In this document: piece by piece, positions 43,673 through 61,025 of the stretch
How the letters are laid out: each line of letters starts with the position of its first letter
Position numbering within the stretch: the first letter of the stretch is position 1
Program-made: the position numbers and the translations under genes
The notes under the pieces: model-generated
What the model was told of the DNA's origin: nothing
What the model saw: only the letters and a program-made list of their open reading frames with translations
Database searches by the model: none
Source: Prevotella sp.
Lineage (GTDB): Bacteria > Bacteroidota > Bacteroidia > Bacteroidales > Bacteroidaceae
Direction of reading: 5' to 3'
Length of the DNA stretch: 64,000 bases
Assembly (NCBI GenBank): GCA_017449495.1
Contig: JAFTFO010000043.1
Location: forward strand, 1 to 64,000

Positions 43673-43705
43673 AATTATCAATTTTCAATTATCAATTATC
43701 AATTC
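43673..43705. repeat. AATTGAT tandem repeat between GH32 and permease
   Basis: On the minus strand AATTGAT/AATTGAA units run from the last codons of GH32 (G-I-D-N-stop) to just before the permease start. Confidence 0.7.
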
Positions 43706-45368
43706 CATAGATCGTTGCCTTTCCGCCATTCACCTTTATGTTATTATAAGGCTCGTTGGGGAACACCAGGTTCGTCATCGCCATACGCCCCTCGGCATCG
43801 AAGGCCTCGATTGAGCAGTTGTCGATGAAGATGCGGAGTTGCTTGATGCTGCCATAGACGGGGGCTGTGGTCACGCAGGGGAAGGCCTCGCTGAAACTGG
43901 CGTACGAGCGGGTACGGTCCATCGAGAAGGTCTGCTGGGCAGTGTCGTACTTCATCACCACCTGCTCACCTAATGAGTTGGAGAGTGTTATCTCTGTAGT
44001 GCCCTTCACGTCGACTACGATCTCACAGGTCTTAGGCAGTTTTTTGACTACCTTTCCCCGCAGGGCATTCAGTTCCTTCGAAGGTGTCACGCCACAGTAG
44101 GTCTGGCCGTTGTGCTCGAAGAGATCCAGGTCGCGGGGCACGCTGTTGGCCGAGCGGAACTGCTTCGTGGGCACCTGGTTGGCATACTGCCAGTTCGACA
44201 TCCAGGCCAGGGCGATCTTACGGCCGTCGGGGGCATTGTCAAAGGTGACGGTAGCATAGTGGTCCTTACCGTAGTCCATCCAGCGGGTATCCTTGTGTTC
44301 GCAGGTGAACTTATGGCCGTCGAAGGTTCCGATGAAATACTGAGTGGCCGAGCCGCCGAAAGGACCGCCGGGGTTGATGTTACAGATTAGCATCCACTTC
44401 TGCTTGTCCGTGCCGCGAACAGGCAACTTCATCAGGTCGGGGCACTCCCATACGCCGTCGTGACAGCCGTAGTCCTTGCCGAAGCTGCTCTCGTAGGTCC
44501 AGTCCTTCAGGTTAGCTGAAGAGTAGATACGCATCTCCTGACCCACGGCCAACACGAGGTTCCACTTCCCAATCTCCTCATTCCAGAAAACCTTTGGGTC
44601 GCGGAAGTCCTCTTCCGTACTCACCAGGATGGGATTGCCACTGTATTTCTCGAACGTCATACCATTGTCCTTCGAGATGGCCATCGACTGCACTTGGCAC
44701 TTGCTGGCAGAGGTGTAGAAGGCCACTACCTCATTCTTATTCACCACGCACGAGCCGCTGAAGATAGCACCCAGGGCATCGGCCTCAATGGCTGTCGGCT
44801 GGCTCTCCCAGTGAATCAAGTCCTTCGACGTAGAGTGTCCCCACGTCATATTCTCCCACTGCGAGCCGTAGGGGTTCCACTGATAATAGAGGTGATAGAC
44901 ACCGTCCTTATAGAACATACCGTTGGGGTCGTTCATCCAGCCATATGCAGGAGTGTGGTGGAACGACGGACGGAACTTCTCCCTATTTGTCGTGTCGAAC
45001 GTATCGCTCTGCTTGATCTCCTTCCAACAGAGGAAGTCCTTCATCGCTCCCGTGAAGCGACGGTCACCATAGAACGTGATGTCGAGCAGCAGGTCCTTCG
45101 CCCCGAAGCGCTCTATATTAAGAGGTACGTAATAGTCTACCTTGTCTACAGCCAGTTTCACGTTCAGCGACTGCACCTGCTGGCCGGCCACCAATACGGA
45201 GATGTTGGCATTCTCCTCCCGTTCCTGTACGGGTAGCAGCAGATACTTGCCCTTCACTTCTACGCGCTGCATGGCGTGGCTCTTGCCCAGCACCTGCGGC
45301 TTCTCCTGTGCTGAGGCTCCAGTGAGCGTCAGCAGCATCGTCATCATTGTCACAATCAGTTTCTTCAT
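43692..45368 (-). CDS. GH32 fructan hydrolase (unit 1), canonical catalytic site
   Basis: 558 residues. ATG 45368 begins a type I signal peptide (MKKLIVTMMTMLLTLTGASA); the 144-nt longer frame crosses the promoter. An N-terminal sandwich of about 100 residues resembles DUF4980, often attached to levanases. The five-bladed propeller has all three GH32 acids: nucleophile Asp147 in WMNDPNG, stabiliser Asp257 in FRDPKVFW and acid/base Glu308 in ECPDL. A C-terminal sandwich ends in NCSIEAFDAEGRMAMTN. It splits beta-fructosidic bonds of levan or inulin; exo or endo action cannot be told. Likely periplasmic. A regulated promoter with two operator boxes lies upstream. Confidence 0.94.
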   Translation of the reverse strand: MKKLIVTMMTMLLTLTGASAQEKPQVLGKSHAMQRVEVKGKYLLLPVQEREENANISVLVAGQQVQSLNVKLAVDKVDYYVPLNIERFGAKDLLLDITFYGDRRFTGAMKDFLCWKEIKQSDTFDTTNREKFRPSFHHTPAYGWMNDPNGMFYKDGVYHLYYQWNPYGSQWENMTWGHSTSKDLIHWESQPTAIEADALGAIFSGSCVVNKNEVVAFYTSASKCQVQSMAISKDNGMTFEKYSGNPILVSTEEDFRDPKVFWNEEIGKWNLVLAVGQEMRIYSSANLKDWTYESSFGKDYGCHDGVWECPDLMKLPVRGTDKQKWMLICNINPGGPFGGSATQYFIGTFDGHKFTCEHKDTRWMDYGKDHYATVTFDNAPDGRKIALAWMSNWQYANQVPTKQFRSANSVPRDLDLFEHNGQTYCGVTPSKELNALRGKVVKKLPKTCEIVVDVKGTTEITLSNSLGEQVVMKYDTAQQTFSMDRTRSYASFSEAFPCVTTAPVYGSIKQLRIFIDNCSIEAFDAEGRMAMTNLVFPNEPYNNIKVNGGKATIYGIDN

Positions 45369-45405
45369 TACCTTATAGTTTTTAATTATTCTATCAATGT
45401 TGCTG

Positions 45406-45472
45406 CAAAGGTACGCTAAAAACACATATCTTACTATAAATAATGTTTCAATTACTAATAAAAATCGTTCAT
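45406..45472 (-). promoter_or_regulatory. GH32-1 promoter with two regulator boxes
   Basis: -7 box TACCTTTG (45413-45406). TGTTTCAA at 45444-45451 (31 nt from the -7 box) and ATCGTTCAT at 45464-45472 (51 nt), in plus-strand spelling. The same words at the same distances occur at 54014 and 57099. No -33 TTTG, as expected of an activated promoter. The distal box is also half of a 9-bp inverted repeat (45463-45471 / 45493-45501). Confidence 0.75.
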
Positions 45473-45513
45473 TGCAACAAAAATATATGTATTGAACGAT
45501 TATTGATAACAAA

Positions 45514-45538
45514 GGCGCGACCCGTGAAGAGTCGCGCC
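45514..45538 (-). terminator. Terminator of unit 1 lipoprotein operon
   Basis: 8-bp GC-rich stem GGCGCGAC / GTCGCGCC, loop of 9 nt, 30 nt past the lipoprotein stop. Confidence 0.65.
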
Positions 45539-45567
45539 ACTTTCATCTTAACAATTAACCTAACAAA

Positions 45568-47112
45568 TTAGATAGACATCAGGTATTCGATGCTGTTCTT
45601 AGCCAGTTTCAGAACGTTGTCCTGACAAGAGTTGTTCTTGGGGGTAGCGCTCTTGTCGGGCGTACCGTCCTCGTTCTTCATCGAGAACTCACAACCACCA
45701 TTGCCAATGCAGAGCACGGTACCAGCACCCTTCTGGAATCCCTCAGGAGCCTTGTCGGCACCCTTGGCCTCCCACACGTTGAGCTGAGATACCCAGCTTG
45801 CCTGGCTGTCCCATGTGCCGAGCGGATAGATACCGTAGTCATTGGTAAGCACATTGTAGCATTCCTCGGAGTCGTTCGGCAGATCGGTCAGCTTCGTCGG
45901 GATATCGAAGAACAGACAGTTGTGGTCCTCAGTCCATCCGGCACCCTTGAAGGCGATGGCGGCGAAGCAGTTGTCGTTCAGTTTCTCAGTGGTAATACCA
46001 GCATAGATGGGGTGTGAACTGAAGTCCTTCGAGAAGGAACCCGTGTTCAGGCAGACGCCCATCTTCCAGACGTCGGGGTTCCAACCGCCCACGCCGCAGC
46101 CGAAGGCATTGCTGACACCACGCAGCAGCGAGGTGGAGAGACGGTTGATGGCTCCGATATAAGGTACGGCATGCGACCACAGCAGCAGGTTGCCGCCATT
46201 CTTTACATACTGCTCTACGCAGGGAGCGGCGTTACGGGCCACGTCGGAGAAGTTCCAGATGTCATCCACATTGCCAGTCTCGATATCGCGCAGCCAGAAG
46301 AGCATGCGATAATCAGCAATGTCCTCCACAGTGCTGATATTGCCAAAGTAAACGTATTCTCCCTTCGGATAGTTCTCCTGGAACCAGAGCCATGCCGAGG
46401 CCTCATCGTCATCGCCATTGGCAATGAGTTCTTCTGGAGTAGCATATTCCGACAAGAATGCAGGAATCTTACCACCGATTTTGGCCGAAGCCCCTACAGG
46501 CAGAGCCTTACCTTCAGCGTTCTGGGCAATGACGGTAGCCTCGAAATGATCCTTCATCTGCACGTTCTCCAGCAGGTAGCTGGTGCCGTTGACGGTGGTG
46601 TTCACCACTTCCTCGGTGCTGTTCTTCACCACCTTCAGGATATACGATGTAGCATCAGAACTGGCAGTCCATGAGATCTGCAGGTTATGCTGATCGTCGG
46701 TGATGTCCACCTGATCCATCTTCACCTCGCTCGGTGTAGAAGCACCGAGGCGGGTATAAGATGTCATCACGCCGTTAGAGATGGCGTCGTCATTGGCATA
46801 CTTGAAGAGGAACTCATACAGTTGGTTGGTCTCCAGGTTCTTCAGTGTGAACGAGCCGGAAGGGCAGGGTGTGAGGGCCTGCTGCTGAGTGCCGTTCTTA
46901 TACACGGCGACATTCATCACGGCGCCATTATTGCCGGTAGGCCAGGTCAGCGTATAGTCATAATTGTTTTCACCGCTAAGCACACCATTTATACTTGTCA
47001 CATCAGGACTGGCAATCTGCATCTGACCAGAACCGGGCAGGTCCTTGTCCTGACAGGAAGTGAAGCCACAGATTACACAGATCGCACAGATAAAACTATA
47101 TATTGATTTCAT
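45568..47112 (-). CDS. Surface lipoprotein with FN3-like and DUF4960-like domains (unit 1)
   Basis: 514 residues from ATG 47112. The signal peptide IYSFICAICVICGFTSC ends in the lipid-anchored Cys and is made of Ile-Cys repeats. Two beta-sandwich domains follow (YDYTLTWPTGNNGAVMNVAVYKNG; NLQISWTASSDATSYILKVV, FN3-like), then a large domain from about residue 215 (LFWLRDIETGNVDDIWNF ... CVEQYVKNGGNLLLWSHAV ... CIGNGGCEFS) related to DUF4960. By position after SusC-SusD it takes the place of SusE-type surface glycan-binding proteins; fructan binding is inferred. Confidence 0.75.
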   Translation of the reverse strand: MKSIYSFICAICVICGFTSCQDKDLPGSGQMQIASPDVTSINGVLSGENNYDYTLTWPTGNNGAVMNVAVYKNGTQQQALTPCPSGSFTLKNLETNQLYEFLFKYANDDAISNGVMTSYTRLGASTPSEVKMDQVDITDDQHNLQISWTASSDATSYILKVVKNSTEEVVNTTVNGTSYLLENVQMKDHFEATVIAQNAEGKALPVGASAKIGGKIPAFLSEYATPEELIANGDDDEASAWLWFQENYPKGEYVYFGNISTVEDIADYRMLFWLRDIETGNVDDIWNFSDVARNAAPCVEQYVKNGGNLLLWSHAVPYIGAINRLSTSLLRGVSNAFGCGVGGWNPDVWKMGVCLNTGSFSKDFSSHPIYAGITTEKLNDNCFAAIAFKGAGWTEDHNCLFFDIPTKLTDLPNDSEECYNVLTNDYGIYPLGTWDSQASWVSQLNVWEAKGADKAPEGFQKGAGTVLCIGNGGCEFSMKNEDGTPDKSATPKNNSCQDNVLKLAKNSIEYLMSI

Positions 47113-47136
47113 AACTTTTACCTTTTTACTTTTCAC

Positions 47137-47230
47137 ATCTATTTTTTAAACTAATTCCCGTAATAACTCGTAATTTTTTATTATGAATAATTATGGTAAT
47201 TTGTTTCTATATTTTCACTTTTTACCTTTA
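47137..47230. other. AT-rich spacer between susD-1 and the lipoprotein
   Basis: About 94 bp of A/T-rich sequence with CTTTTTAC- and AATAATTATG-like words; no hairpin or promoter of note. Confidence 0.5.
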
Positions 47231-48946
47231 TCAGTATCCCTTGTTCTGATGATAGAGACCCTGTACGTAGTTCATCTGATTAGATGCGATAGGGAAGTAC
47301 TCGTTCTTGTTTGCCGTGAAGAAGGCGTCCTTGTAGTACAGGCCATAGGTCTGTCCGTCGTACTCGTCGGTGACCTCTGTCTCGAAGTACTTGTTGAGGG
47401 TTGTGGACAGCAGGCCCCAGCGACGCAGGTCGAAGAAGCGGTGTCCCTCCATGGCCAACTCCACACGGCGCTCCCAGCGCAGGGCCTTACGGGCATCGTC
47501 CTTAGATGCGAACGATCCATAGAGGCTGATGTCGCACTGATCCTTGGCATACTTGATGAGCGAGGTGTTCGAGATGTCTCTCTTGGCACGACTGCGGATA
47601 TCGTTGATGATCTGTAGGGCCTCGCCGTTCAGGTCGCCCTTCTCTATCAGAGCCTCGGCCCTCATCAGCATCACGTCGGTATAGCGCAGCACGTAGTCGT
47701 TCTGTCCGAATGCCTGCCAGGGGTTGTCATAGTCCTCACCCTTCGAGCGCTGGGGAATCTCCTTCATCGAGCAGTAGTAGCCGTAGGTGTTCGGTGTGCG
47801 GCTGTTGGCCTTGGTCAGCGTATACTGCTCCTCATACTTATAAGGATAGGTAGGCATGCCAACGGTGTGGAACAATCGGGGGTCGTACTTGTACTTCGTA
47901 TCGGCACCATTCACCACGATGGCATTGTGATCCTCGTCGAAGTCGTCCATCGGCAGACCGTTACGGGTCTTGAAGGCGTTCACCAGGTTCTGCGAGGGCT
48001 TGTGGAAGTCCCATCCGCACGACCAGATGCCCCATACGCCGTTCAGCATGTTTGACCAGTTGGCGCGGCCGTATTGTGTACCGTCGTCGGCCTTGTTGGA
48101 GTGTTGCACGGCGAAGATGCTCTCCACCGAGTTAGCATAGTCCTGCAGGAAGATGTGTCCGTAGGTGTCGAGATAGTCGTATGGCGAGTTCTTCACCACT
48201 TCGGTATAGTCGATCACTTTCTGGATCTTCTGCTGATCCACATGAGCATAGCCCGTCGTGGCCTCATAACCGTCGCCGTAAGCCCAGTTCAGGTAGCACT
48301 TGGCCAGGTAGGCAGCGGCAGCCACCTTATGTGCACGTCCCGTTGTGCCGGGAGCAGCCTCGGGTAGATTCTCGTAGGCATACTGGAAGTCGTCGATGAT
48401 CAGTTGCATGATCTCGTCGTGCGAGCTCTGAGGACAGGCCTCGATAGCGGCATTGTCCATGCCTTCCGTCACGAACGGCACCTCGTACCACATCTGCTGC
48501 AACTTGTAATAGAAGTGACCACGGAGGAAGCGCACCTCGGCACGATACTGCCTGTTAGTGGCATTATCCTCGGCATTGTCTAATGACTCGATGGCACGGT
48601 TGCAGCGAGAGATGGCACTATAGAGTTGATACCACAGTTCGTCGAACTCACCACGGTCGGGCTGCAGGGTAGAGAATATCTCCATGGGGTGATAGCCCGT
48701 GTCGTTCTCACCACTGCCGCCTTTCAGGCAGTCATCGGCACTCATGTCGCCGTAAGGCCAGAGATTGAACGGATAGCTGTACCAGTCATCGCCAAGTTTG
48801 GCGTATGCTGCGGTAACGAGTTTGTCGGGACTTGAAAATGCCGTCTCATCGTCCAGTACGCCCTGCGGCTTCACGTCGTCAACACTACATGATACTGCAA
48901 AGATGGAAAGCAGCAAGGTTGCGATATATATATTGATCTTTTTCAT
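47231..48946 (-). CDS. SusD/RagB-type outer-membrane glycan-binding lipoprotein (unit 1)
   Basis: 571 residues. Signal peptide MKKINIYIATLLLSIFAVSC with Cys20 for lipidation, then an N-terminal SusD part (DDVKPQGVLDDETAFSSPDKLVTAAYAKLGDDWY) with helical TPR-like repeats (AISRCNRAIESLDNAEDNA, YRAEVRFLRGHFYYKLQQMW) and the family C-terminus (KALRWERRVELAMEGHRFFDLRRWG). It forms the lid on the SusC channel and captures fructan at the cell surface. It begins 35 bp after susC-1 across a TTAAGA repeat and is co-transcribed with it. Confidence 0.94.
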   Translation of the reverse strand: MKKINIYIATLLLSIFAVSCSVDDVKPQGVLDDETAFSSPDKLVTAAYAKLGDDWYSYPFNLWPYGDMSADDCLKGGSGENDTGYHPMEIFSTLQPDRGEFDELWYQLYSAISRCNRAIESLDNAEDNATNRQYRAEVRFLRGHFYYKLQQMWYEVPFVTEGMDNAAIEACPQSSHDEIMQLIIDDFQYAYENLPEAAPGTTGRAHKVAAAAYLAKCYLNWAYGDGYEATTGYAHVDQQKIQKVIDYTEVVKNSPYDYLDTYGHIFLQDYANSVESIFAVQHSNKADDGTQYGRANWSNMLNGVWGIWSCGWDFHKPSQNLVNAFKTRNGLPMDDFDEDHNAIVVNGADTKYKYDPRLFHTVGMPTYPYKYEEQYTLTKANSRTPNTYGYYCSMKEIPQRSKGEDYDNPWQAFGQNDYVLRYTDVMLMRAEALIEKGDLNGEALQIINDIRSRAKRDISNTSLIKYAKDQCDISLYGSFASKDDARKALRWERRVELAMEGHRFFDLRRWGLLSTTLNKYFETEVTDEYDGQTYGLYYKDAFFTANKNEYFPIASNQMNYVQGLYHQNKGY

Positions 48947-48976
48947 AACTCTTAATTCTTAACTCTTAATTCTTAA
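48947..48976. repeat. TTAAGAG/TTAAGAA tandem repeat between susC-1 and susD-1
   Basis: On the minus strand four 7-8-nt units of AATTAAGA and GTTAAGA type fill the spacer up to the susD-1 start. Confidence 0.7.
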
Positions 48977-48981
48977 TTATA

Positions 48982-51900
48982 TTAGAATCCCACCTGTACA
49001 CCGAATGTGAAGGAAGCGGTGTGCGGATAGTTCCATGCAGTATTCTCAGGATCAGAGCAGGTCAGTGAACTTGACTTGATGGTCAGGAGGTTATCACCAG
49101 AGAGATAGACGCGGGCCTTCGAGAGCAACAGTTTCTTGGCAAGTGCAGTGGGGAAGGTATAGCCCAACTGGAGGGTGCGCAGTTTGATGTATGAGCCGTT
49201 CTCCACGTAGTATGAAGACATACGGCCTTCGTCGGCACCGTTTGATGTGGTCAGGGCAGGAATGGTGGAACTGCTGTTGGCAGGTGTCCATGCGTCAATC
49301 AGACGCTCACCCTTGTTCGAACCGGCATCGGTAATGCTCCAGAAGTCTGTCTGGTATTTCTGGTTGTTGATCACATCCACGCCAGATACGCCCTGCCAGA
49401 ACATGGTGAAGTCGAAATCCTTGTAGCCCAGGTCGACATTGATACCGTATGAGAAGTTGGGCACAGGGTTGAACACCCAGGTACGGTCGGCCTCGTTGAT
49501 ACGGCCGTCACCATTCAGATCGGCATACTTCAGACCACCAACGCGAGCACCAGCCTGTCCGTGGGCAAGCACCTCCTCGCGATTCTGATACAGTCCTTCC
49601 ACCACGTAACCGATCAGTGAGCCGTAGGCCTTCTCGTCCTGAGCCAGGTTGTGGTAGTCGTTGTGCTCGTATGAGTTTTTCGACTTCTCAGGCAGATAGG
49701 TCACCTTCGAGCGATAGAAGTCCACATTACCCGTAATATTGTACGACAGTCCGTATGCCGTCTGGTGACGATAGCCAAGATTAAGTTCCATACCCCAGTT
49801 CTTCAGTGTCGGACCGTTGATCCAGGTCTGACCACCGAAGCCGATGGCTCCGAGGAAAGCCGGCTGCACGAGCATGTCCTTGGTCTCCTTGAAGAAGAGG
49901 TCGTATGAACCGTAGAGCTCACCGCCGAAGAGCGAGAAGTCGGTACCGAAGTTCCACTGTGATGAAGACTCCCACTTCAGGTCCTCGTTGGCCGACTGCG
50001 ACTTGTAGTAACCTGAGGGCAGCGTACCGGAATACTGTAGATTGAGATCGTAGGCTGTGGAGTTCTCACGGTCAGAACCATAGTTGGCCACGAAGAGTCC
50101 GTAGTGAGCCGTATTCGAGTTCATGCCCTGGTTACCGGTGATACCGTAACTGGCTCGGATCTTCCAGTCGCGCAGCCAGTCGGCATCGATATGCTTGGAG
50201 AGACGATAGGCCAGAGAGGCTGAGGGGAATGTACCGTACTGGTTGTTCTTACCGAAGCGGCTTGATCCATCGTAGCGCAGGGTGAACGAAGCCAGCAGCA
50301 GGTCGTTCCAGTTGTAGTCGATCTTGCCGAAATATGACATCAGTTTGTAGGAGTCGCCAGCACCTGTGACTGTCTGGATACCCGTACCTGCACTGGGCCA
50401 CATATAGTCTATGGTCTCCAGCGGATACTCCGTACGGCGTGCAGAGAAGTCGGTGTAGTTGTCCTCGTGGGCCTCGATACCCAGAAGCACATTCAGGTTG
50501 TGGTTCTCGACGATGTCGAAGTTATACTGCAAGGTGTTCGACCAGGTCCACTTCGTGCTGTGCGTCTGCGACAGGGTGCTGGCGTTGGTGCTGTTCTTCA
50601 CCACGTCCGAGTCCCATGTGTGCTGCAGGCTGCGGATGTTGCTGTTTGTATAGTCGATACCGAAGTTCGAGCGGAAGAGCATGCCTTTCACAGGCGTGAT
50701 GTCAACGTAAGCATTGGCAAAGATGCGCCATTTCTTCAGGCGGTTGTCCTTATTATGATAAAGTTCGCGCAGGGGATTCTGGCGGTCACTCATACCACCC
50801 ACAGGGCCTGAGAAGGTCACACCGTCATCCTCATAGACTGGCAGTGTAGGCGCAATCTTCAGCGCGTTCTCCAGGGGGGCAGCATCTACATTGCTTGAAT
50901 AAGAGAACTGAGCATTCTCGCCCACGCTGACGATGCTGTTGATCTTGTAACTGCTGTTAAAGCGGGCCGAGAAGTTCTCGAAGTCAGTATGCTTCAGCAC
51001 ACCGTTAGCCTTCTTGTAGCCAAAAGAGAAGAGAGACGAACCCTTATCGGTAGCCTTCGAGAAGGAGAGGTCGTAGTTCTGGGTGACACCCGTACGCCCG
51101 ATTTCGTCTACCCAGTCAGTATCGCTGTAAATCATGGTGCGCTTGGCATTCATATAGCCATCGTAGAATCCGCCGACGGTGTACTGTTCCATGGCCTCTG
51201 TAGCAGGATTATAGACAGAAATGGGCGTGCCACCAGCCACATTAAGTGCCAGACCGTAGTTCTGGGCATAGTCTGTAGGATTCTTGCCGTCGTTCAGTGC
51301 AGCCTGCACCAGGGCGGTGGCATACTGCTGGCTATTCAGGAGTTTCATCTTCTGCGACATCCAAGCCATAGAGACCGAAGCGTTGAAGTCGATGTTCACC
51401 TTGTCGCCCTTCTTACCTTTTTTGGTTGTAATCACAATCACACCGTTAGCAGCACGCGATCCGTAGATAGAGGCAGAAGCAGCGTCCTTCAACACCTGCA
51501 TGGTCTCGATATCCGATGAGTTCAGGCTGTTCAGCGAACCGCTGAAGGGGATACCATCCACGATGTAGAGCGGAGCCGTGCTCGAACCACCCATACTGCC
51601 GATACCACGAATATGCACATCGGCCTCACCCGAAGGCGAACCATTAGAAGTGATCGTCATGCCGGGCACCTTACCCTGCAACGAGGCCATAGGGTCGGTG
51701 TTGCTGGTCTTGAAGTTTTTTGTCTCTACGACTCCTACAGCACCCGTCAGGTCTTGCTTGCGCTGCACCTGATAACCCGTCACCACAACCTCCTGCAGCA
51801 CCTCTGCATCGTCCTTCATGGTGACGTTCATGCCGTTCTGGGCAGGAAGTTCCATGGTCTGATAGCCAATGTAAGAGATGACGAGGGTTGCTCCGTCATT

Positions 51901-52092
51901 AACCTTGATTGCGAAGTTACCGTCGAAATCGGTGATTGTACCGTTCGAAGTACCCTTCTCCATCACCGTAGCACCGATGACAGGCTCGCCTGCTCCATCA
52001 ACTACGGTTCCTTTGATCTCTGTCTGCGCGTACATTATAGTACTCGTCAGAATGAGTGCGAAACTCAGAAATAGTTTTCTTAGTTGCTCCAT
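48982..52092 (-). CDS. SusC/RagA TonB-dependent transporter (unit 1)
   Basis: 1,036 residues from ATG 52092, which starts a clean signal peptide ([23 protein letters not shown]); an in-frame ATG at 52122 would also fit the promoter. The mature protein begins with a carboxypeptidase-like domain ([22 protein letters not shown]), then a TonB-box-like region and plug ([26 protein letters not shown] ... [51 protein letters not shown]) and a 22-strand barrel ending in FTFGVQVGF. It imports fructo-oligosaccharides with energy from TonB. Operator boxes lie upstream. Confidence 0.95.
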   Translation of the reverse strand: [1036 protein letters not shown]

Positions 52093-52142
52093 TGTTGAAT
52101 TTTTAATTTGGTTAGTACTCATTTTTAATGTGAATTCTGCTG

Positions 52143-52209
52143 CAAAGGTACGAACCCTTTTATATTAAAACTTGTAATTTTCGTTCATCATCAAGCAAAA
52201 ATGATACAC
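52143..52209 (-). promoter_or_regulatory. susC-1 promoter with regulator box
   Basis: -7 box TACCTTTG (52150-52143). TCGTTCAT at 52181-52188 occupies the place of the proximal box (31 nt from the -7 box). The distal place, 51 nt away, holds only a weak match (ATGATACAC at 52201). Confidence 0.6.
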
Positions 52210-52265
52210 GAAACAAATGTGGACTATTTTGTCAAAATCCTCAACTATCTTTTATAAAAAGGAAA

Positions 52266-52286
52266 AGCAGGGCGGTCAGCCCTGCT
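52266..52286 (-). terminator. Terminator of the regulator gene, spanning its stop codon
   Basis: Perfect 8-bp stem AGCAGGGC / GCCCTGCT with the TGA in the loop; on the minus strand it is followed by TTTTCCTTTTTA. Confidence 0.8.
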
Positions 52287-53817
52287 CTGCTCTTACCTCC
52301 ATCGGATATTTACCGAAATATTTCTTGAAACAATTGGAGAAGTAGCCCGGTGTGCCGAATCCCACCTCGTAGGCTATCTCGTTGACGGTCTTGGTGGTCG
52401 TGGTCAGTAGGACATAGCCCCGTTGCAATCGCATCTGACGGAGCAGTTCTACGGGCGATTGTCCCGTGATGGCCTTCACCTTCCGATACAGTTGCACGCG
52501 ACTCAGGCCGATCTCCTCGCCCAGTTCCTCCATCTTCAGGTTGGGATTGCCCATATGCTTGCGGATGGCTTCGTTGAGCGTCTCGGCAAAGATGGTGTCC
52601 TGCGAACGGGGTGCGGGTGTCTCTTCCTTGGGTGTTTCGAACACCTGGCGCAACGTTCGGCTGTCGGCGTTGGTGTAGAAGAGTGTCTCTTCCACGTTCA
52701 GGTCCTGTCGCTGTTTCGTAGCCTTACGGGTCTGGACGTAGGCTCGCCAGATCATCAAGATGGCCATGATGAGCAATGCGATGGTGATCAGACTGCCTAT
52801 CAGCATCTTGTGCTGCGTATTGTAGAGGCCGAAGTAGTTCTCCAGTTTGTCGTGGATGGTGATGAGGTCGTGGTTCTGCTGCATCAACTCCTTGCTGTTA
52901 AGGGCTTCGAGGTTGGCGTTCTCGGGTGTCACGATCATGCTGGGCAACAGGTTGTCGCGCTCGTAGGGCTGTCCTGTCAGGATGTCCAAGGCCAGCCGCA
53001 CGATCTTCTCGCCGTGGGTCGGATAGACGTAGGAACCGTCTTCCATTCCTTTCTGGACGTAGGCAATGCCTTCATCAAGCCGTCCGTCGATTCCCAGAAT
53101 CTTGACCCTGTCCCTCAACTTCGCCTCTTTTACGGCCTTATAGGCCCCGTTAGCCATAAAGTCACTGTGGCAAAAGATGATATCGGGCTGCTTTCCCAGA
53201 ACCAGTTGCCGCTTAACCACCTTATAGGCGGCTTCCGTCGACCAGTCGCTCATAATACTGGTGTACGCCAACTCCGGGTGCGCCTTCATCACCGACTCAA
53301 ATCCCTGATGCCGCTCCTGTGCTGGCGATGTGGTCATCGTGGCCGTGACCTCAAGCACGCTGCTCCCGACTCCCGACTCTTTCGCCAGACTGACGGCATA
53401 GTTGCCCATGGCCTTTCCTGCGCCGACGTTGTCGCCTCCGATAAAAGCAGTATAGTCTTCCGTATCAGCCTTCCGGTCGAAGAAGATGACGGGAATGCCC
53501 TTGGCTCTTACCTTTGCAATGGCTTCCACCAGTGGTTCTGCCTGGTTCGGGGCCACCACCAACAGGTCGATGTCACAATTGGCCAGACTGTCTATCTGGC
53601 GCTTCTGCAGTTCCGTGTCGTCGTAGGAATCCACGATGCTCACCTTCACGTCCTGTTCATACAGGTGCTGGGCGCCCAGCATCTCCTGGTTCACCTTCTC
53701 GCGCCAAGGTCCCTGAGAACACTGTGACACCGCGATCCTGTAGGTCTTACCACTCTCCGAGCAACCCGTCAGCAGGGCTGCCATTAATATAATAAGGTAT
53801 TTATGCGACTTGTGCAT
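52276..53817 (-). CDS. Membrane-spanning one-component regulator: periplasmic sugar-binding domain fused to AraC domain
   Basis: 513 residues. A signal sequence with a possible lipobox (LLTGC, Cys19) leads into a type I periplasmic binding domain, residues about 26-300 (RIAVSQCSQGPWREKVNQEM, DLLVVAPNQAEPLVEAI, VIFFDRKADTEDYTAFIGGDN, ILGIDGRLDEG), of the ribose/fructose-binding kind. One membrane helix follows (338-360, MLIGSLITIALLIMAILMIW), a 60-residue linker, and an AraC DNA-binding domain with two helix-turn-helices (425-511: LKMEELGEEIGLSRVQLYRKVKAITGQSPVELLR ... VNEIAYEVGFGTPGYFSNCFKKYFGKYP). Bacteroides fructan regulators of the hybrid two-component kind have the same ends but with kinase and receiver domains between; here these are absent. 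It should sense fructose or a short fructan in the periplasm and act at the boxes described upstream of the enzymes. Confidence 0.9.
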   Translation of the reverse strand: MHKSHKYLIILMAALLTGCSESGKTYRIAVSQCSQGPWREKVNQEMLGAQHLYEQDVKVSIVDSYDDTELQKRQIDSLANCDIDLLVVAPNQAEPLVEAIAKVRAKGIPVIFFDRKADTEDYTAFIGGDNVGAGKAMGNYAVSLAKESGVGSSVLEVTATMTTSPAQERHQGFESVMKAHPELAYTSIMSDWSTEAAYKVVKRQLVLGKQPDIIFCHSDFMANGAYKAVKEAKLRDRVKILGIDGRLDEGIAYVQKGMEDGSYVYPTHGEKIVRLALDILTGQPYERDNLLPSMIVTPENANLEALNSKELMQQNHDLITIHDKLENYFGLYNTQHKMLIGSLITIALLIMAILMIWRAYVQTRKATKQRQDLNVEETLFYTNADSRTLRQVFETPKEETPAPRSQDTIFAETLNEAIRKHMGNPNLKMEELGEEIGLSRVQLYRKVKAITGQSPVELLRQMRLQRGYVLLTTTTKTVNEIAYEVGFGTPGYFSNCFKKYFGKYPMEVRAEQG

Positions 53818-53844
53818 TTGGTCAGGTTATTTATTACACCGCGG

Positions 53845-53852
53845 CAAAGGTA
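53845..53852 (-). promoter_or_regulatory. -7 box of the regulator gene
   Basis: Minus-strand TACCTTTG, 27 nt before the start codon, immediately after the T-run of the terminator at 53863-53905. It lacks the regulator boxes found at the other promoters. Confidence 0.65.
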
Positions 53853-54009
53853 CAAAAAAGAATCCGACCCTGCAACTTTTACCACGTAAAAACTTGCGAA
53901 TCGGACTTTTGGGGGTGTCTTTCCTGGAAAACAATCTTAATAACCTAATCGTATTACTAACACTAACTAACAATTAACCTAAGTATGTATGAAACTTGAC
54001 TTCTTTCTG
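53853..54009 (-). ncRNA. Candidate small RNA (about 155 nt) or attenuated leader in the fructan locus
   Basis: A regulated promoter (54021-54014) predicts a start near 54009. Transcription would cross about 100 nt containing TTAGGTTAATTGTTAGTTAG-like sequence without any ATG frame, and end at a hairpin (53863-53905: TCCGA/TCGGA, TGCAA/TTGCG and TTTTAC/GTAAAA helices around a 3-nt loop) followed by TTCTTTTTT. The regulator's own -7 box begins right after this T-run. It may therefore be a separate RNA, or a leader through which regulator expression is attenuated. Confidence 0.5.
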
Positions 54010-54013
54010 GGTG

Positions 54014-54080
54014 CAAAGGTAGGCATAAATCGCGGTTCAGGCTTTAAACTTTGTTTCAAATGCTATCAATTATCGTTCAT
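54014..54080 (-). promoter_or_regulatory. Promoter with two regulator boxes, driving the candidate small RNA
   Basis: -7 box TACCTTTG (54021-54014); TGTTTCAA at 54052-54059 (31 nt) and ATCGTTCAT at 54072-54080 (51 nt). Spacing is identical to the two GH32 promoters. Confidence 0.75.
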
Positions 54081-54097
54081 ACGACGAAAAAACAGCA

Positions 54098-54709
54098 TTA
54101 TTTGATGAAAACATCGAGCATAATGTTCACTTTGATCGCTTTCTCGCCCTCCCGAATGGTGACGGGGTGGCTGATGTGCTGCAGCCCCTTCCCGTGTTTC
54201 CCTTCTACCGTGAAGGTGACGGGTAGGCACTCCTGACGATTGTGTTCGTCGCGATGGAGCACGATCACACTGCGCTCCTTGGTCTCACCCACAGACATCC
54301 GCCCCAGGTCGAAACGATCTGTTGAGAGGCGCAAACCGTCGTCGATACGGATGGGGAACTGCCGCATCAGGGTTTCCTCGGAAGTGATGCAAGTGCCTTC
54401 GAGTGAGAGGTGGAGGCGCTTGCGGTTGGGGGAATAGACGACCGTCCCCGTTTCCAGGAACTCACCGCCCTTGCCCTGCGGATTGAAGCGGAGGGTAACG
54501 CAGGTGCTGTCGCCAGGAGCAATGACCTTGTCCTTGGTGAACTGGATGGTGGTGCAGCCGCAGGAGGTGTAGCCCTGTACAAGGGCTACGGCCTCAGTGC
54601 CGCAGTTGCGTAGCCAGAACGAGCGTTCCACTTCTCCGTTAGACTCTTGGATGGTGCCCAGTGAGAGGGTGGCGAGGCCAAGGACTACCAGTGAATCAAC
54701 GCCCAACAT
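54098..54709 (-). CDS. DUF1573-domain protein overlapping GH32-2
   Basis: 203 residues if started at ATG 54709, which overlaps the end of GH32-2 by 14 nt; a longer frame to 54787 is possible. TSCGCT after a short strand pattern (LGTIQESNGEVERSFWLRNCG) and FNPQGKGGEF are the marks of DUF1573, an Ig-like fold found in many Bacteroidota exported proteins. A second similar fold seems to follow (LDLGRMSVGETKERSVIVLHRDE-like region, ending IMLDVFIK). No signal peptide is evident, which is unusual for the family. The role in the fructan locus is unknown; it may be a structural or chaperone-like partner of GH32-2. Confidence 0.6.
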   Translation of the reverse strand: MLGVDSLVVLGLATLSLGTIQESNGEVERSFWLRNCGTEAVALVQGYTSCGCTTIQFTKDKVIAPGDSTCVTLRFNPQGKGGEFLETGTVVYSPNRKRLHLSLEGTCITSEETLMRQFPIRIDDGLRLSTDRFDLGRMSVGETKERSVIVLHRDEHNRQECLPVTFTVEGKHGKGLQHISHPVTIREGEKAIKVNIMLDVFIK

Positions 54710-57071
54710 ATTTCCTGCCGTTCTTGATATAAACGCCTTTTCTGAGTGGATAGTGAATAGTGAATAGTGAAGAATTTGCTTCCGCACTGAGAACCTTGCG
54801 GCCCAGAAGGTCGTAGACAGAATGGTCCATTGTCGATTGACCTTTGCCGATGGCCTTGATGCCAGTGTCTCCGCCTTGCTTAGGATCGAGCGTCCACGCC
54901 CTTACACTGGCCTGCATCTCTGCCGTGGCAAACACCTCTGCACCCGTTGCCTCTGCGTCTTTGGGGAAGAGGCGAACGGAGAAAGCCCAGGTGTCGTTGA
55001 CGAAGATGTCGGCAATGGAGCCGTCGAGCCAGACGTGCAGGGTCAGTTTTTCGCCCGCATTCACCTTCTTGGGCAACGTGATGGCGTAGATGCCGTTATA
55101 GGTTGCCTCCGGGTCACGCTGTTCGCGCAGGAGTTGGGTCAGGTCGAGGGTCAGCGTGCCACGGTCTGTGTCGTAGGTGAGCGATGCCTGCTGGCTGCCC
55201 GACTTCAGGAAGTTGAAGCCGCAAGTGCCGGAGGCAACCGTGAATTCGCCCAGTAGTTCTATCTGTCGGCCACTGACGGGTGCCAGTGATTCGATGCCCG
55301 TCAGGGCGCCGTTCTTCTCGCAGGTCGTTTCCGTCCGCATGCCTTCCAGTCCGCTGTAGGGCTTCTGTATCAGCGTGCCGTCGGCAGCCAGTGAGATCTC
55401 ACGCGGCAGTGAGTAGTTGTGCGCCCAGCCCATCTCAAAGTTCTTCTGTGTGGCGAGTTTGTCGGGCACGATGCCGAGCAGCAGCGTCTTACCATCCTTC
55501 TGATAGATGGTCGGTGAGAGCAGGCCGAAGCCGTCTTTGCTGATGCCGCCCATCTCAAGATACTGCACGCCAACCGCGTCGGGGGTAAACTTGCCGTCGC
55601 TGCCAATGGTGCCTGCCCAGCAGAGGGCGCGCACACCGATACCCGTGCCGAGCGGCGTACAGGTGAAGAGCCACTTGTCGTCATCCATCGGTGTCACGTT
55701 CGGCATCTCCCAGAAAGTGCCGTGCAGATTGGCCGTCGAGCCTTGGAAGAAGACGGTGCCGTCGTTCGTCCACGCCCCATTCTCGTACTTATGGAGCGTA
55801 CAACAGCCCACGCCGTTCTTGCCAGTGCCCACGATCACGTATTTCTGTCCGTTGGCCTCGAAATAGTATGGGTCACGGAAATCAGCGAATCCACCTGCCG
55901 GTGTGCCATTGATGACGATGCCCTGCTTCTCCCAGGTCTTCAGTGAAGCATCCGTAGCCTTGGCTTGGGCGATGGTGGCACGGGCATTGTCGACAGCCGT
56001 ATATAATATATAGGTGTCACCACCGTCCTCATAGACGCTGCCACTCCAGCAGCCCTTGATGTCATACGACTCACCGGGTGCGATGGCTATCGGCTCTTCA
56101 CGCCAGTCGTAGAGGTTCTCGCTCGAGATGTGTCCCCAGTGCAGACGCGACATATACGGGCCGTTGGCATTCTTCTGGAAGAACACGTGATAGCGTCCGT
56201 CGCTGTAGGTCATACCGTGGGTCTCGTTCGTCCATGCGCCCGACGGCATCCCGTGGAACTGCGGCCGCCAGATATTGTCGGTATAACGCTCCGCAGGATA
56301 GTTGAAATCGGGGCGAAACTGACTCATGTCCACCAGATTTATGAGAGTGAAGTCTGTGACTTCATTGCTGATACTGATATCGTCGATAGCACCGCAGAAA
56401 GCATTAAGCAGCATCTTGCCTGTCCAGGGATCGGTCACGTTGTCCTGATTCTTGCCGATGTAGAAATCGGTTGTGGAGTGAACGATATCGGCTCGGCCCA
56501 TACGACCCGTAGCTATCTGTCTACCATTCAGGTAGAGCGAAGCGGCATTATTGGCCTTGTCGAGCGTTGCCGTCAGCAGGCACCACTCGCCCCGAGGCAG
56601 TTTCTCGTCTGCCAGTATTGTCATTACGAAGCCGGAGGCTGAACCATAACGGAACCGCAAGTCGCCCTGTGAGGAAAGTTCGAAGGCGAACCCCGACTTG
56701 GTCTCTTCATCAAGATTGCCGCAGATGGTGGCGAAAGTCGGTGTCTCTTCTGCCACGTCGACCTGCATCATCGGATAGGTCTCTGCAGCCAGTGTCACAC
56801 TGATGGTCATGGCCTCCGTGCTGAAGGTGCTGACGGGCAAACTCGCACGAACATAGTTAGAATAACCATCGAAGCGCAAGGCCTCGCCGTCGATGCCAGT
56901 AATGGTGCAGGCGGGTAGTTGACTGCTGACGATGTAGTCTGTGTTTGTCACTGTTTCTGTCGTTTTGCCGTCATGCAGCGACATGTCAAAATGAGCCACT
57001 TGGGTCTGGGCCATTGCTCCTGTCTCCAGTGCTGTCAGCAGGGCCGTAAGTAGTAAGTTCTTCAGTTTCAT
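54696..57071 (-). CDS. LamG-GH32 protein (unit 2) with altered nucleophile motif
   Basis: 791 residues from ATG 57071 (signal peptide MKLKNLLLTALLTALETGAMA). Residues about 25-235 form a LamG/concanavalin-like domain (VAHFDMSLHDG ... GEALRFDGYSNYVRASLP ... IDDISISNEV). The GH32 propeller follows, but the WMNDPNG motif reads AWTNETHG, so the nucleophile Asp is replaced by Glu283. The stabiliser Asp400 (FRDPYYF) is kept, and the acid/base Glu455 sits in WEMPNV rather than ECPD. A C-terminal sandwich (LHVWLDGSIADIFVNDTWAFSVRLFP) is present. The tail VYDLLGRKV ... KGVYIKNGRKYVGR resembles a short sorting-signal-like end seen on secreted Prevotella proteins. Activity may be changed or lost. Regulated promoter upstream. 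Confidence 0.88.
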   Translation of the reverse strand: MKLKNLLLTALLTALETGAMAQTQVAHFDMSLHDGKTTETVTNTDYIVSSQLPACTITGIDGEALRFDGYSNYVRASLPVSTFSTEAMTISVTLAAETYPMMQVDVAEETPTFATICGNLDEETKSGFAFELSSQGDLRFRYGSASGFVMTILADEKLPRGEWCLLTATLDKANNAASLYLNGRQIATGRMGRADIVHSTTDFYIGKNQDNVTDPWTGKMLLNAFCGAIDDISISNEVTDFTLINLVDMSQFRPDFNYPAERYTDNIWRPQFHGMPSGAWTNETHGMTYSDGRYHVFFQKNANGPYMSRLHWGHISSENLYDWREEPIAIAPGESYDIKGCWSGSVYEDGGDTYILYTAVDNARATIAQAKATDASLKTWEKQGIVINGTPAGGFADFRDPYYFEANGQKYVIVGTGKNGVGCCTLHKYENGAWTNDGTVFFQGSTANLHGTFWEMPNVTPMDDDKWLFTCTPLGTGIGVRALCWAGTIGSDGKFTPDAVGVQYLEMGGISKDGFGLLSPTIYQKDGKTLLLGIVPDKLATQKNFEMGWAHNYSLPREISLAADGTLIQKPYSGLEGMRTETTCEKNGALTGIESLAPVSGRQIELLGEFTVASGTCGFNFLKSGSQQASLTYDTDRGTLTLDLTQLLREQRDPEATYNGIYAITLPKKVNAGEKLTLHVWLDGSIADIFVNDTWAFSVRLFPKDAEATGAEVFATAEMQASVRAWTLDPKQGGDTGIKAIGKGQSTMDHSVYDLLGRKVLSAEANSSLFTIHYPLRKGVYIKNGRKYVGR
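54745..54771 (-). repeat. 7-bp tandem repeat inside the GH32-2 tail
   Basis: TAGTGAA occurs three times in a row (54751-54771), preceded by a variant. It encodes S-L-F-T-I-H-Y just before the KGVYIKNGR tail. Seven is not a multiple of three, so loss or gain of a unit would change the frame. Confidence 0.8.
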
Positions 57072-57098
57072 ATCTTGTCGTATTAATCTATTTGGCTG

Positions 57099-57165
57099 CA
57101 AAGTTACGATAAAAACCGCTTTGCCTCATTAAAATTTGTTTCAAATAATGCAAAATATCGTTCAT
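57099..57165 (-). promoter_or_regulatory. GH32-2 promoter with two regulator boxes
   Basis: -7 box TAACTTTG (57106-57099); TGTTTCAA at 57137-57144 (31 nt) and ATCGTTCAT at 57157-57165 (51 nt). Confidence 0.75.
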
Positions 57166-57187
57166 CTGTACGTTTTAACCTTAATAA

Positions 57188-57216
57188 GGCAGCGTTAACA
57201 CTCGGTTATCGCTGCC
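57188..57216 (-). terminator. Hairpin after the unit 2 lipoprotein
   Basis: 7-bp GC-rich stem GGCAGCG / CGCTGCC extended by AAC/GTT inside, 34 nt past the stop; only a weak T-run follows. Confidence 0.55.
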
Positions 57217-57249
57217 CATCCTAACTAATTAACTAATAATATGTGAATC

Positions 57250-59244
57250 TTATTTCAGATAGCCGATACAGTTGGCGGTGAACTTCTCCAACTGGTTCTG
57301 ATACTGGTTCGTTCCGCCGATGTTCCACTCGTAGGCGGCAAGGCCGACAGCGAGGATACGGCCAGCGAAAGTGCTGGTAGGCTCGAAGTCGATGATACCG
57401 GCGCAGCAGTAGTCGACGACGTGGTTCCAGGTGCCGAGGACGTGCGAGTTGGTGGTGTCTTCCCACATCTTCACCACGTTAGGCTCTGCGGCCAGACCGT
57501 AGGCGTTGAGGTCCCACATACAGTTGTGGTCACCCTTCACACCAGCTCCCTCGAAGCAGTAGATGCTACGCTCGTAGAGTCCGCTGACGAAGTCCATGCC
57601 CCAGTAGATGTCGTGGCCGGAGTGGTCGTAGATCTGTCCCTCGGTGTTGCCGATGATGGGCTGCGAGCCCCAGACGTCGCCATTGTCTCCGCCTTCGCCA
57701 TTGCCGAAGATGCCGGGTGCATAGGCTTCTGCGATACGGCCGACGGCGACGGTGAGTTGGGTGGCGTGGTTGGTGAGCAGCAGGTTACCACCGTCGGCCG
57801 TGAAAGCCTTCAGGGCATTGATGGTCTCTGCCGAGGCAAGGTCGCCGGGCAGGTTCTGCCAGCCGTGCTCCACGCCGATGCGGTCGCACATCACCCAGCA
57901 CATCGGGTTCTGCTCGATGTCGAGTTGGTCGATGGTGGCAGGCGTCAGGAGCACACCCTTACCCTGATTGACATAGTTCTGCTGGAACCAGGCCACGGCA
58001 TCCTTCTCGTCGGCACTCTGGGTGTAGTCGTTGGGTACGAGCATGGCCACTTTCTGGTCGGCAGGTGCAGCGACGTAGGAGAGACAGTTGCTGGTGAACT
58101 TCTCCAGTTGGTCCTGATAGGGGTTGGCGACGCCGATGTTCCACTCGTAGGCAGCCAGACCGACGGCGAGGATGCGACCAGCGAAGGTGCTGGTGGGGGC
58201 GAAGTCGATGATACCGGCACAGCAGTAGTCAACCACGTGGTTCCAAGTACCGAGTACGGTCGAGTTGGTCATGTCCTCCCAAGCCTTCACCACATTAGGC
58301 TCCGGAGCGAGGCCGTAGGCGTTGAGGTCCCACATACAGTTGTGGTCGCCCTTCACACCGGCTCCCTCGAAGCAGTAGATCGAACGCTCATAAAGTCCGC
58401 TGGTGAAAGTCATGCCGCGATAGATGTCATGGCCTGAGTGATCGTAGATCTGTCCCTCGGCGTTACCGATGATGGGCTGTGAGCCCCAGACATCGCCATT
58501 CTCTCCACCTTCGCCATTGCCGAAGATGCCGGGTGCGTAGGCGTCAGCGATACGGCCGACAGCAACCGTCAACTGAGTGGCGTGGTTGGTCAGGAAGAGG
58601 TTACCACCGTCAGCGGTGAACGACTTCAGAGCGTTGATGGTCTCTGCGGAGGCAAGGCCGCCAGGAAGATTCTGCCAGCCGTGCTCTACACCAATGCGGT
58701 CGCACATCACCCAGCAGGCGGTCTGCTTCTCAATGTCGAGATTGTCAATCGTGTTCGGGGTAACGAGCACACCCTTGCCAGTGTTGACATAGTTCTTCTG
58801 GAACCAGGCCACGGCATCCTTCTCGTCGGCACTCTGCTCGTAGTCGTTGGGCACGAGCATGGCCAACTGAGAGCCGCCTTTCTGCACCTCGTAGAAGATG
58901 TTGAAGCGCACGGTCTGACCTTCTGAAACACGGCCGTCGCTGTAGCGGGCCTTCACGGTATAGGCTACGTCGACATTCGTCGGTGCCTTCTTGATGAGAT
59001 AACTGCTGATAACCTCGTCGATATTAGTCACATCGTCGTTGTCTTTAATAATCTGGACACCTGTCTGACCTTGCATGGAGGGATTGGTCCAAGTGAGGTT
59101 AACCTGACGGCTGCCGTCGGCGTATTCGGCCACGAGATTGGTCACGGCTTCGCTGTACTTGGCGGCTTCGTACTCTACATCGGAGCAGGAAGTAAAGCCA
59201 CAGATTGCACAGATTACACAGATGAATTTATTGATAGTCTTCAT
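57250..59244 (-). CDS. Surface lipoprotein with duplicated DUF4960-like domain (unit 2)
   Basis: 664 residues from ATG 59244 (MKTINKFICVICAICGFTSC, lipidated Cys20). A short FN3-like domain (VNLTWTNPSMQGQTGVQIIKDN) is followed by two nearly identical domains of about 270 residues, each starting AMLVPNDY-x-QSADEKDAVAWF and containing CWVMCDRIGVEHGWQNLPG, FTADGGNL-LTNHATQLTVAVGRI and YCFEGAGVKGDHNCMWDLNAYGLA. The DNA is repeated with an 816-bp offset; a 36-bp block at 57985-58020 is identical to 58801-58836. The domain is a distant version of that in the unit 1 lipoprotein. Likely a SusE-type fructan-binding protein with two sites; recent duplication. Confidence 0.78.
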   Translation of the reverse strand: MKTINKFICVICAICGFTSCSDVEYEAAKYSEAVTNLVAEYADGSRQVNLTWTNPSMQGQTGVQIIKDNDDVTNIDEVISSYLIKKAPTNVDVAYTVKARYSDGRVSEGQTVRFNIFYEVQKGGSQLAMLVPNDYEQSADEKDAVAWFQKNYVNTGKGVLVTPNTIDNLDIEKQTACWVMCDRIGVEHGWQNLPGGLASAETINALKSFTADGGNLFLTNHATQLTVAVGRIADAYAPGIFGNGEGGENGDVWGSQPIIGNAEGQIYDHSGHDIYRGMTFTSGLYERSIYCFEGAGVKGDHNCMWDLNAYGLAPEPNVVKAWEDMTNSTVLGTWNHVVDYCCAGIIDFAPTSTFAGRILAVGLAAYEWNIGVANPYQDQLEKFTSNCLSYVAAPADQKVAMLVPNDYTQSADEKDAVAWFQQNYVNQGKGVLLTPATIDQLDIEQNPMCWVMCDRIGVEHGWQNLPGDLASAETINALKAFTADGGNLLLTNHATQLTVAVGRIAEAYAPGIFGNGEGGDNGDVWGSQPIIGNTEGQIYDHSGHDIYWGMDFVSGLYERSIYCFEGAGVKGDHNCMWDLNAYGLAAEPNVVKMWEDTTNSHVLGTWNHVVDYCCAGIIDFEPTSTFAGRILAVGLAAYEWNIGGTNQYQNQLEKFTANCIGYLK

Positions 59245-61020: not shown

Positions 61021-61025
61021 CTCTT

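Follow-up and report, generated by a model that had tools for sequence, protein, structure and literature searches.

A fixed-distance two-arm element at the promoters of a Prevotella fructan locus: a putative operator for a predicted one-component membrane regulator of AraC type

Introduction

The closest described counterparts of the element reported here belong to the hybrid two-component systems (HTCSs) of Bacteroides. In the available portions of a 2013 study, HTCS motifs were predicted as direct repeats averaging 21 bp for 16 of the 36 HTCSs of B. thetaiotaomicron, and BT1754 is given as a fructose-sensing HTCS with the regulon name HTCS_Fru (PMC3878776). Other HTCSs have had their AraC-type domains tested for DNA binding (PMC11253607, as far as the available text goes). 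Here we describe a two-arm element at a fixed distance from predicted promoters in the fructan locus of Prevotella sp. (GenBank assembly GCA_017449495.1), analysed in the first 64,000 nt of contig JAFTFO010000043.1 (the window). We estimate a probability of about 0.8 that its boxes are the half-sites of a putative AraC-type activator operator for the fructan locus, the regulator most likely being the product of the gene at 52276-53817, its paralogue, or both.

As in HTCS_Fru (BT1754), to the extent that it is described in the available text, a homologous sensor, an AraC-type domain, fructan gene targets and direct repeats of about 21 bp come together at this locus, whereas a fixed distance to the −7 element and an inverted second pair of arms, both found here, are not described in that text (PMC3878776). 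SusR motifs, in the same portions of that source, are direct repeats as well, but are spaced 67 or 77 bp apart rather than 21 bp (PMC3878776). Unlike HTCS_Fru, the regulator here has neither kinase nor receiver. SusR-type regulators pass the signal through the inner membrane to a DNA-binding domain in a single step, as we propose here. As a dimer, Escherichia coli AraC occupies a direct repeat of about 21 bp at a fixed place upstream of the araBAD promoter, which resembles the present case; it differs in being soluble, without a membrane anchor, and in using other promoter elements. E. coli XylR joins a periplasmic-binding-protein-like sensor to an AraC domain, as the regulator here does, but XylR is cytoplasmic, whereas the present protein carries a signal sequence together with a single predicted transmembrane helix.

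Results

The initial annotation of the window described two boxes at exact distances from three −7 elements, and these distances hold. Read on the plus strand, the −7 boxes are CAAAGGTA at 45406-45413 and 54014-54021 and CAAAGTTA at 57099-57106; TGTTTCAA begins 31 nt past each box (45444, 54052 and 57137) and ATCGTTCAT 51 nt past it (45464, 54072 and 57157), with the TNNTTCAW cores 21 bp apart at all three promoters. In the direction of transcription (minus strand), the order is a distal arm ATGAACGA, a 13-nt gap, a proximal arm TTGAAACA, a 30-nt spacer and TANNTTTG, a geometry that we abbreviate as 30/13. At susC-1, TCGTTCAT occupies the 31-nt place (52181) and a weak distal TGATACAC differs from the core by two mismatches. 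The fifth site that was sought upstream of susC-2 is present just outside the window with exact spacing (C13:64120-64186; −7 box at 64120-64127, TCGTTCAT at 64158, TGTTGCAA at 64179). Both susC promoters have ATGAACGA as the proximal arm, with GTGTATCA as the distal arm at susC-1 and TTGCAACA at susC-2. The element therefore stands at five predicted promoters, namely those of the unit of GH32, major facilitator superfamily (MFS) and sugar kinase genes, of GH32 gene 1, of susC-1 and of susC-2, and one before the regulator gene (Table 1).

Each site joins the Bacteroidota −7 element TANNTTTG to a pair of similar, equally oriented half-sites spaced by about 21 bp, as is usual for AraC-type direct repeats, and has no −33 TTTG. 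TTTG is absent from all five 30-nt spacers, as had been claimed, and it occurs at the −33 distance in 4 of 136 sites (described below), versus 71 of 482 when every TANNTTTG string on the plus strand of 76 loci is counted.

The exact pattern TNNTTCAW-N13-TNNTTCAW occurs three times in the window, always at the promoters 45406, 54014 and 57099, against a mean of 0.05 in 100 shuffles. With up to two mismatches allowed, 38 window matches compare with 16.5 expected, so loose matches alone are uninformative and the telling feature is the exact form together with its −7 box. When scored with the −7 box at its fixed distance, four window sites pass, while 297 of 300 random first-order Markov windows have none and three have one. 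The genome assembly itself (2.24 Mb, 68% complete, so that sites elsewhere could be missed) contains 13 exact matches; a −7 box stands at 30 nt only for the three locus copies, and at 26 and 5 nt for two of the others. Tighter patterns match the fructan locus only, with three matches in one arm order, two in the other (one of them being the inverted pair described below) and none in the controls. The genome scan recommended in the initial annotation has thereby been run, and the many unrelated matches at the same spacing that were named there as the adverse outcome did not appear.

The geometry is conserved beyond this genome. Loci were scanned for any TANNTTTG with two arms like WTGAMNSA under a weighted score, over a range of spacers and gaps. 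In 37 loci (the window, L009 and L040-L074), 48 sites fall at 30/13, and the next two cells, with 15 and 12 sites, have the proximal arm at the same place. In 76 loci of named GTDB genomes (1.27 Mb), a set that partly overlaps the first (e.g., L089 with G020 and L145 with G034, whose contigs are equally long), 95 sites fall at 30/13 and 27 in the next cell, the other 1580 cells averaging 0.65; at least one 30/13 site is present in 66 loci. At gap 13, the next most frequent spacer is 51, with 13 sites, all at promoters that also hold a 30/13 site. Other frequent cells, such as (30,21) with 27, (30,1) with 26 and (39,4) with 26, were rejected as separate geometries and are echoes of the same arrays: in 12 of the next commonest cells, 212 of the 218 matches lie at promoters with a 30/13 site. 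The nearest named relatives are Prevotella or Prevotellaceae genomes, many from the rumen, and the window therefore probably comes from a rumen Prevotella.

Operator matches also follow the regulator. Among 299 genomes of the genus, the 192 with a homologue of any architecture (E ≤ 1e-60) have a mean of 2.01 operator matches, with at least one in 157, versus a mean of 0.58 in the 107 without a homologue (Mann-Whitney p 5.6e-18, with at most five candidates scored per genome, some genomes incomplete and some matches resembling coding sequence). In 22 loci with an HTCS homologue outside the genus, 18 of which contain a GH32 gene, 30/13 is again the commonest cell, with 8 matches against an all-cell mean of 0.39 at a lower score threshold, although at least one of the eight (L186) resembles coding sequence. 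The geometry also occurs at four full-HTCS loci within the genus (L060, L061, L063 and L072), and once each in fructan loci of Bacteroides finegoldii and Phocaeicola massiliensis.

The two arms are not equivalent. Merging of identical sites left 136, of which 134 lie outside L151 and L152; both arms could be typed in 123, and 11 were left out of typing because one or both arms are neither ACA nor CGA type. One ACA-type and one CGA-type arm are combined in 118 of the 123 typed sites, in either order, whereas 20000 shufflings of the arms, which ignore kinship, gave 65.6 mixed pairs on average and 86 at most; the arm score itself gives no preference to mixed pairs. The boxes were thus rightly described as a direct repeat, but they are not interchangeable. 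The CGA arm is distal in all 17 typed GH32 promoters, while at susC promoters the ACA arm is distal in 67 and the CGA arm in 11, with one homotypic site. The box and weak distal match reported at susC-1 are borne out, but this is not simply a poorer site: susC-1 and susC-2 carry the opposite arm order.

On a quick tree of 78 of 81 SusC proteins (three were too short), arm order requires at least seven changes, five of which, for the rarer order, are forced by supported branches; gene or promoter exchange may lie behind part of them. These changes bear on whether the likeness of the boxes is only functionless inheritance from duplicated promoter units. The near identity of susC-1 and susC-2 around the −7 box and start codon would fit such an origin; however, the arms are retained across many species while spacer letters diverge, and nearly all sites keep one arm of each type through the changes of order, which makes this explanation highly improbable. 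The mixed arms as a sign of two paralogous regulators are likewise unlikely, as they also occur in genomes with one listed regulator (e.g., G035), where paralogues weaker than the E-value cut-off could exist. Outside the genus, seven of the eight sites in HTCS loci are ACA/ACA-like by eye, and the CGA arm thus seems to be an innovation of Prevotella; those of B. finegoldii and P. massiliensis are also ACA/ACA, in contrast to the Prevotella sites with their CGA-type arm. E. coli AraC has a strong and a weak half-site, and by analogy the mixed arms may be one strong and one weak half-site, which would restrain a membrane-tethered dimer from firing without sugar.

The direct repeat is often part of a larger array. 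A scan of the opposite strand upstream of the distal arm in the 134 sites (272 matches over 742 cells in all) revealed an inverted pair, with an overlap of one or two bases between its inner arm and the distal arm. The pair is found at offset 0 or 1 with gap 13 in 64 sites (39 and 25) and with gap 12 in 20 more, so that 84 of 134 sites are back-to-back arrays, and 50 have no inverted pair at threshold; further cells were (4,17) with 20 and (0,9) with 16. The form varies with the promoter: gap 13 in 51 of 81 susC promoters (gap 12 in one), gap 12 in 7 of 18 GH32 promoters (gap 13 in one), and gap 12 in three of six regulator-upstream sites. In the genome under study, the pair is clear at susC-2 (64158-64214) and present with gap 12 at 45406. 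The two-box operator originally proposed is accordingly a real direct repeat, but it is the promoter-proximal half of a four-box array at 45406, at susC-2 and in 84 of the 134 sites. The susC-2 array (C13:64158-64214; L009 4159-4215) is a 57-bp palindrome of two opposed 21-bp direct-repeat pairs sharing one base. A divergent promoter was considered for the inverted pair and rejected as the general case, a far-side −7 box at 30 nt being present in just 2 of the 64 gap-13 arrays.

The simplest reading of the four boxes is that two dimers would bind back to back; to our knowledge, E. coli AraC has no back-to-back four-box array of this shape. The inverted pair is present in three of the eight matches of HTCS loci outside the genus (L188, L193 and L152), so the array may be ancestral. 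As the upstream inverted pair resembles the repression arrangements of other AraC-family proteins, the sites could mainly repress, with the regulator blocking polymerase in the absence of sugar and departing on fructose. We regard this as very unlikely, since the proximal arm stops 30 nt before the −7 box, without overlap, and a strongly favoured spacing and the lack of the −33 TTTG are expected of activation.

The regulator gene at 52276-53817 is the sole AraC-domain gene among the 14 open reading frames scanned in 39361-63983. Its product carries a signal sequence, in which a lipobox-like cysteine was recognised by eye, and one strong hydrophobic segment, with none between it and the helix-turn-helix (HTH) domain. 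HisKA, HATPase and receiver domains gave no Pfam match in the 513 residues, and alignment shows a gap over the kinase-receiver part. The protein thus shares the sensor and AraC-type domain with HTCSs but neither the kinase (HisKA and HATPase) nor the receiver, which rules out filing it as an HTCS; it is predicted to be a one-component membrane-spanning protein with a BT1754-like sensor, one helix and an AraC HTH. The AraC-domain regulator expected by the initial annotation therefore exists in the locus as an HTH_18 protein, but as a one-component type with a predicted membrane helix. The best-scoring PDB entry for it is 2x7x, 'sensor protein' (E 2e-50, residues 25-336), which we take to be the BT1754 sensor, and on visual comparison it closely resembles the HTCS of a B. 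finegoldii fructan locus. In the sensor, CHSD replaces the CHND-, GHND- or GAND-like motif of many relatives, at a position possibly in contact with the sugar.

A second one-component paralogue, 40% identical, is encoded beyond susC-2 (C13:66191-67918), and these two, both inside the fructan locus, are the homologues found in the genome at E ≤ 1e-60. Their position is relevant to the possibility that another AraC-domain protein, such as a full HTCS encoded elsewhere, binds the operator and the one-component proteins only modulate it. The same geometry at the full-HTCS loci outside and within the genus would agree with such a binder, and further regulators may be missing from an assembly of this completeness. 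Nevertheless, both homologues sit within the locus, and three genomes of the genus (G035, G007 and G008) have operators in their fructan loci, yet only one homologue each at this cut-off, of one-component type; we consider the alternative binder unlikely.

Three regulator architectures share what appears to be one operator, the geometry being alike in the loci of all three. Once proteins below 470 aa, duplicates and four proteins truncated by a locus end had been removed, 108 regulators were classed by length as one-component (75, 484-575 aa), ATPase-less (25, 711-750 aa, with HisKA and receiver but too short for an ATPase domain) or full HTCS length (8, 867-938 aa), with HisKA and receiver checked by blastp in all. 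Pfam on eight relatives found HisKA and receiver without HATPase in five of the middle class, and none of these in three one-component proteins. The phospho-accepting His and Asp are retained in 25 of 25 ATPase-less regulators, while the GxGxGL-type ATP-binding motif is present in 0 of 25 versus 7 of 8 full forms. The ATPase-less class includes the regulators of L047, L048, L056, L057 and L042:13941-16121.

In a careful tree of 40 of the 108 regulators, four HTCSs of the genus branch nearest the Bacteroides outgroup, and the one-component label needs five changes, four of which are forced by well-supported branches. A single clade of one-component regulators was rejected on these 40 rows (approximately unbiased test, p 0.00019, an optimistic value because the group was defined only once a first tree was available, and one that does not separate repeated loss from recombinational regain). 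In a quick tree of all 108, the label needs seven changes, six of them forced, and five HTCSs of the genus fall within the paralogue clade with weak support; with their placement differing between trees, the order of events is unsure. In most proteins of the window type, the start of the HisKA helix (EQTLFYT) is joined directly to the receiver end (RxLRxxF), and the linkers of the paralogue clade differ from this junction. These junctions argue for loss, and the phosphorelay was thus probably deleted more than once.

Promoter 54014 requires a separate reading. Downstream of it, a U/G-rich stretch is followed by a hairpin that ends in a T6 tail, after which comes the −7 box at 53845-53852. Because the hairpin with its T run and this second −7 box intervene, 54014 is perhaps not the direct promoter of the regulator gene, and it may make a short operator-controlled RNA instead of regulator mRNA. 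The 193-nt leader has a z-score of −2.2; a strict terminator scan listed no terminator, and Rfam gave no known RNA family at gathering level in 45000-64000. Among 34 Reg1-type genes whose upstream stretch measures 420 nt or more (two encode kinase-bearing proteins truncated by the locus end), 30 place a −7 box no more than 90 nt from the chosen ATG; an operator promoter lies farther upstream, up to 700 nt, in seven, two of which (L042 and L089) are the same sequence.

Autoregulation of the regulator gene from 54014 remains a serious alternative, though one we consider somewhat less probable than its contrary: 54014 is the first operator met upstream of the gene on its strand, and the seven Reg1-type genes offer a parallel, but the hairpin and second −7 box lie in between, most such genes have their own close −7 box, and the stretch searched holds no operator in 27 of the 34. 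A T run preceded by a hairpin is seen near the regulator gene in the window, L045, L079 and L088. A second hairpin screen, covering 129 of the 134 sites (five were too near the locus end), was positive at four and missed the window's own, hence an undercount; it flagged L042 and L045, while a hairpin in L049 was noted by eye alone. Promoter-hairpin units also occur elsewhere, in L104 (near 20668) and L115 (near 1919).

Table 1. Predicted promoter, operator and gene features of the fructan locus (window positions).
Feature	Position	Strand	Details
−7 box of GH32/MFS/sugar-kinase unit	45406..45413	-	TACCTTTG
Proximal arm	45444..45451	-	TTGAAACA, ACA type
Distal arm	45465..45472	-	ATGAACGA, CGA type
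Inverted near arm	45472..45479	+	TTGCAACA; base 45472 common with distal arm
Inverted far arm	45492..45499	+	TTGAACGA, 20 bp from near arm
GH32 gene 2	43692..45512	-	First of GH32-MFS-sugar kinase unit; true start probably near 45368
susC-1	48982..52122	-	Then susD (47231-48946) and DUF4960 gene (45568-47136)
−7 box of susC-1	52143..52150	-	
Proximal arm of susC-1	52181..52188	-	ATGAACGA, CGA type
Weak distal arm of susC-1	52202..52209	-	GTGTATCA
Degenerate inverted pair at susC-1	52208..52236	+	ACGAAACA, TTGTCAAA; at score threshold
Regulator gene	52276..53817	-	513 aa; signal sequence, Peripla_BP_4, hydrophobic segment 338-356, HTH_18 (Pfam)
Second −7 box, without operator	53845..53852	-	TACCTTTG, 35 nt before regulator ATG
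Terminator-like hairpin with T6 tail	53854..53908	-	Between promoter 54014 and regulator gene; bounds approximate
−7 box upstream of regulator	54014..54021	-	Possibly of short transcript
Proximal arm at promoter 54014	54052..54059	-	TTGAAACA
Distal arm at promoter 54014	54073..54080	-	ATGAACGA
GH32 gene 1	54696..57101	-	With laminin-G-like domain
−7 box of GH32 gene 1	57099..57106	-	TAACTTTG
Proximal arm of GH32 gene 1	57137..57144	-	TTGAAACA
Distal arm of GH32 gene 1	57158..57165	-	ATGAACGA
susC-2	61026..63983	-	Continues beyond window end; four-box operator at contig C13:64158-64214

Two further observations concern the surroundings of these features. A TTAGTTAG/TTAGGTTAATTGTTA-rich stretch ahead of a GC hairpin is repeated after gene ends (45513-45570 and 57170-57250) and could serve this organism as a general 3' end signal. 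A gene with a VapE-like domain lies on the opposite strand between susC-2 and the second regulator (L009 4580-5827) and is possibly inserted.

Discussion

The geometry of the element is real, specific to the fructan locus in this genome and conserved, and its reading as a putative AraC-type activator site is well supported by sequence comparison, from which we obtained the geometry, its locus specificity and conservation, the co-occurrence with the regulator, the domain make-up, the inverted pair and the tendency to combine one ACA with one CGA arm. The initial proposal thus stands in that the fixed-distance, locus-specific direct repeat is probably an activator site, and it is corrected with respect to the array, the arms, the type of regulator and promoter 54014. 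Several observations weigh against the activator reading. Ten of the 76 loci have no site at threshold; among the 107 genomes without a homologue, 39 still have at least one operator match and 14 at least two, and 35 of the 192 homologue-bearing genomes have no match to either pattern. The inverted pair is absent at 54014 and 57099 and marginal at susC-1, and with two paralogous regulators in the locus, sequence cannot tell which binds what.

For the activator reading, we infer a mechanism that comprises DNA binding, fructose as the ligand here, the membrane topology, binding as a dimer and as a dimer of dimers, and activation. The periplasmic domain would bind fructose, and the regulator dimer in the inner membrane would then change shape, such that its two cytoplasmic AraC domains could occupy the half-sites 21 bp apart on the same face of the DNA. 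With the proximal half-site ending exactly 30 nt upstream of TANNTTTG, RNA polymerase would be recruited at promoters without a −33 element, and a second dimer could sit back to back on the abutting inverted pair at many promoters of susC genes and a few others, completing the four-box array. A wider scenario can be sketched, in which Prevotella lost the ATPase domain of a fructose HTCS, with His and Asp kept, and then the kinase-receiver part, more than once; the result would be a direct membrane activator acting as two back-to-back dimers on an unchanged, ancestral four-box operator, each dimer needing an ACA and a CGA arm in either order, and promoter 54014 would drive a short non-coding RNA. 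Taken as a whole, this scenario is speculative and we consider it rather doubtful.

Direct repeats of 21 bp have already been published for HTCSs, and the added interest of this locus is the series of regulators and the larger operator. No title among the open-access matches listed concerns kinase-less fructose HTCSs or four-box HTCS operators, and neither these listings nor the available portions of PMC3878776 and PMC11253607 describe a fixed −7 distance, an inverted pair, a rule of mixed arms or a Prevotella fructose sensor that has lost kinase and receiver. Full HTCSs, ATPase-less HTCSs and one-component regulators form a natural series on what looks like one operator, in which the contribution of kinase and receiver to sugar sensing is testable by swapping regulators on the same promoter. 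Prevotella gains a defined promoter-operator grammar, and the present findings may explain fructan loci that seem to lack an HTCS, such as the Segatella copri inulin locus, for which the available text reports that no contiguous HTCS gene was observed and that the role of an upstream homologue is unclear (PMC11784079).

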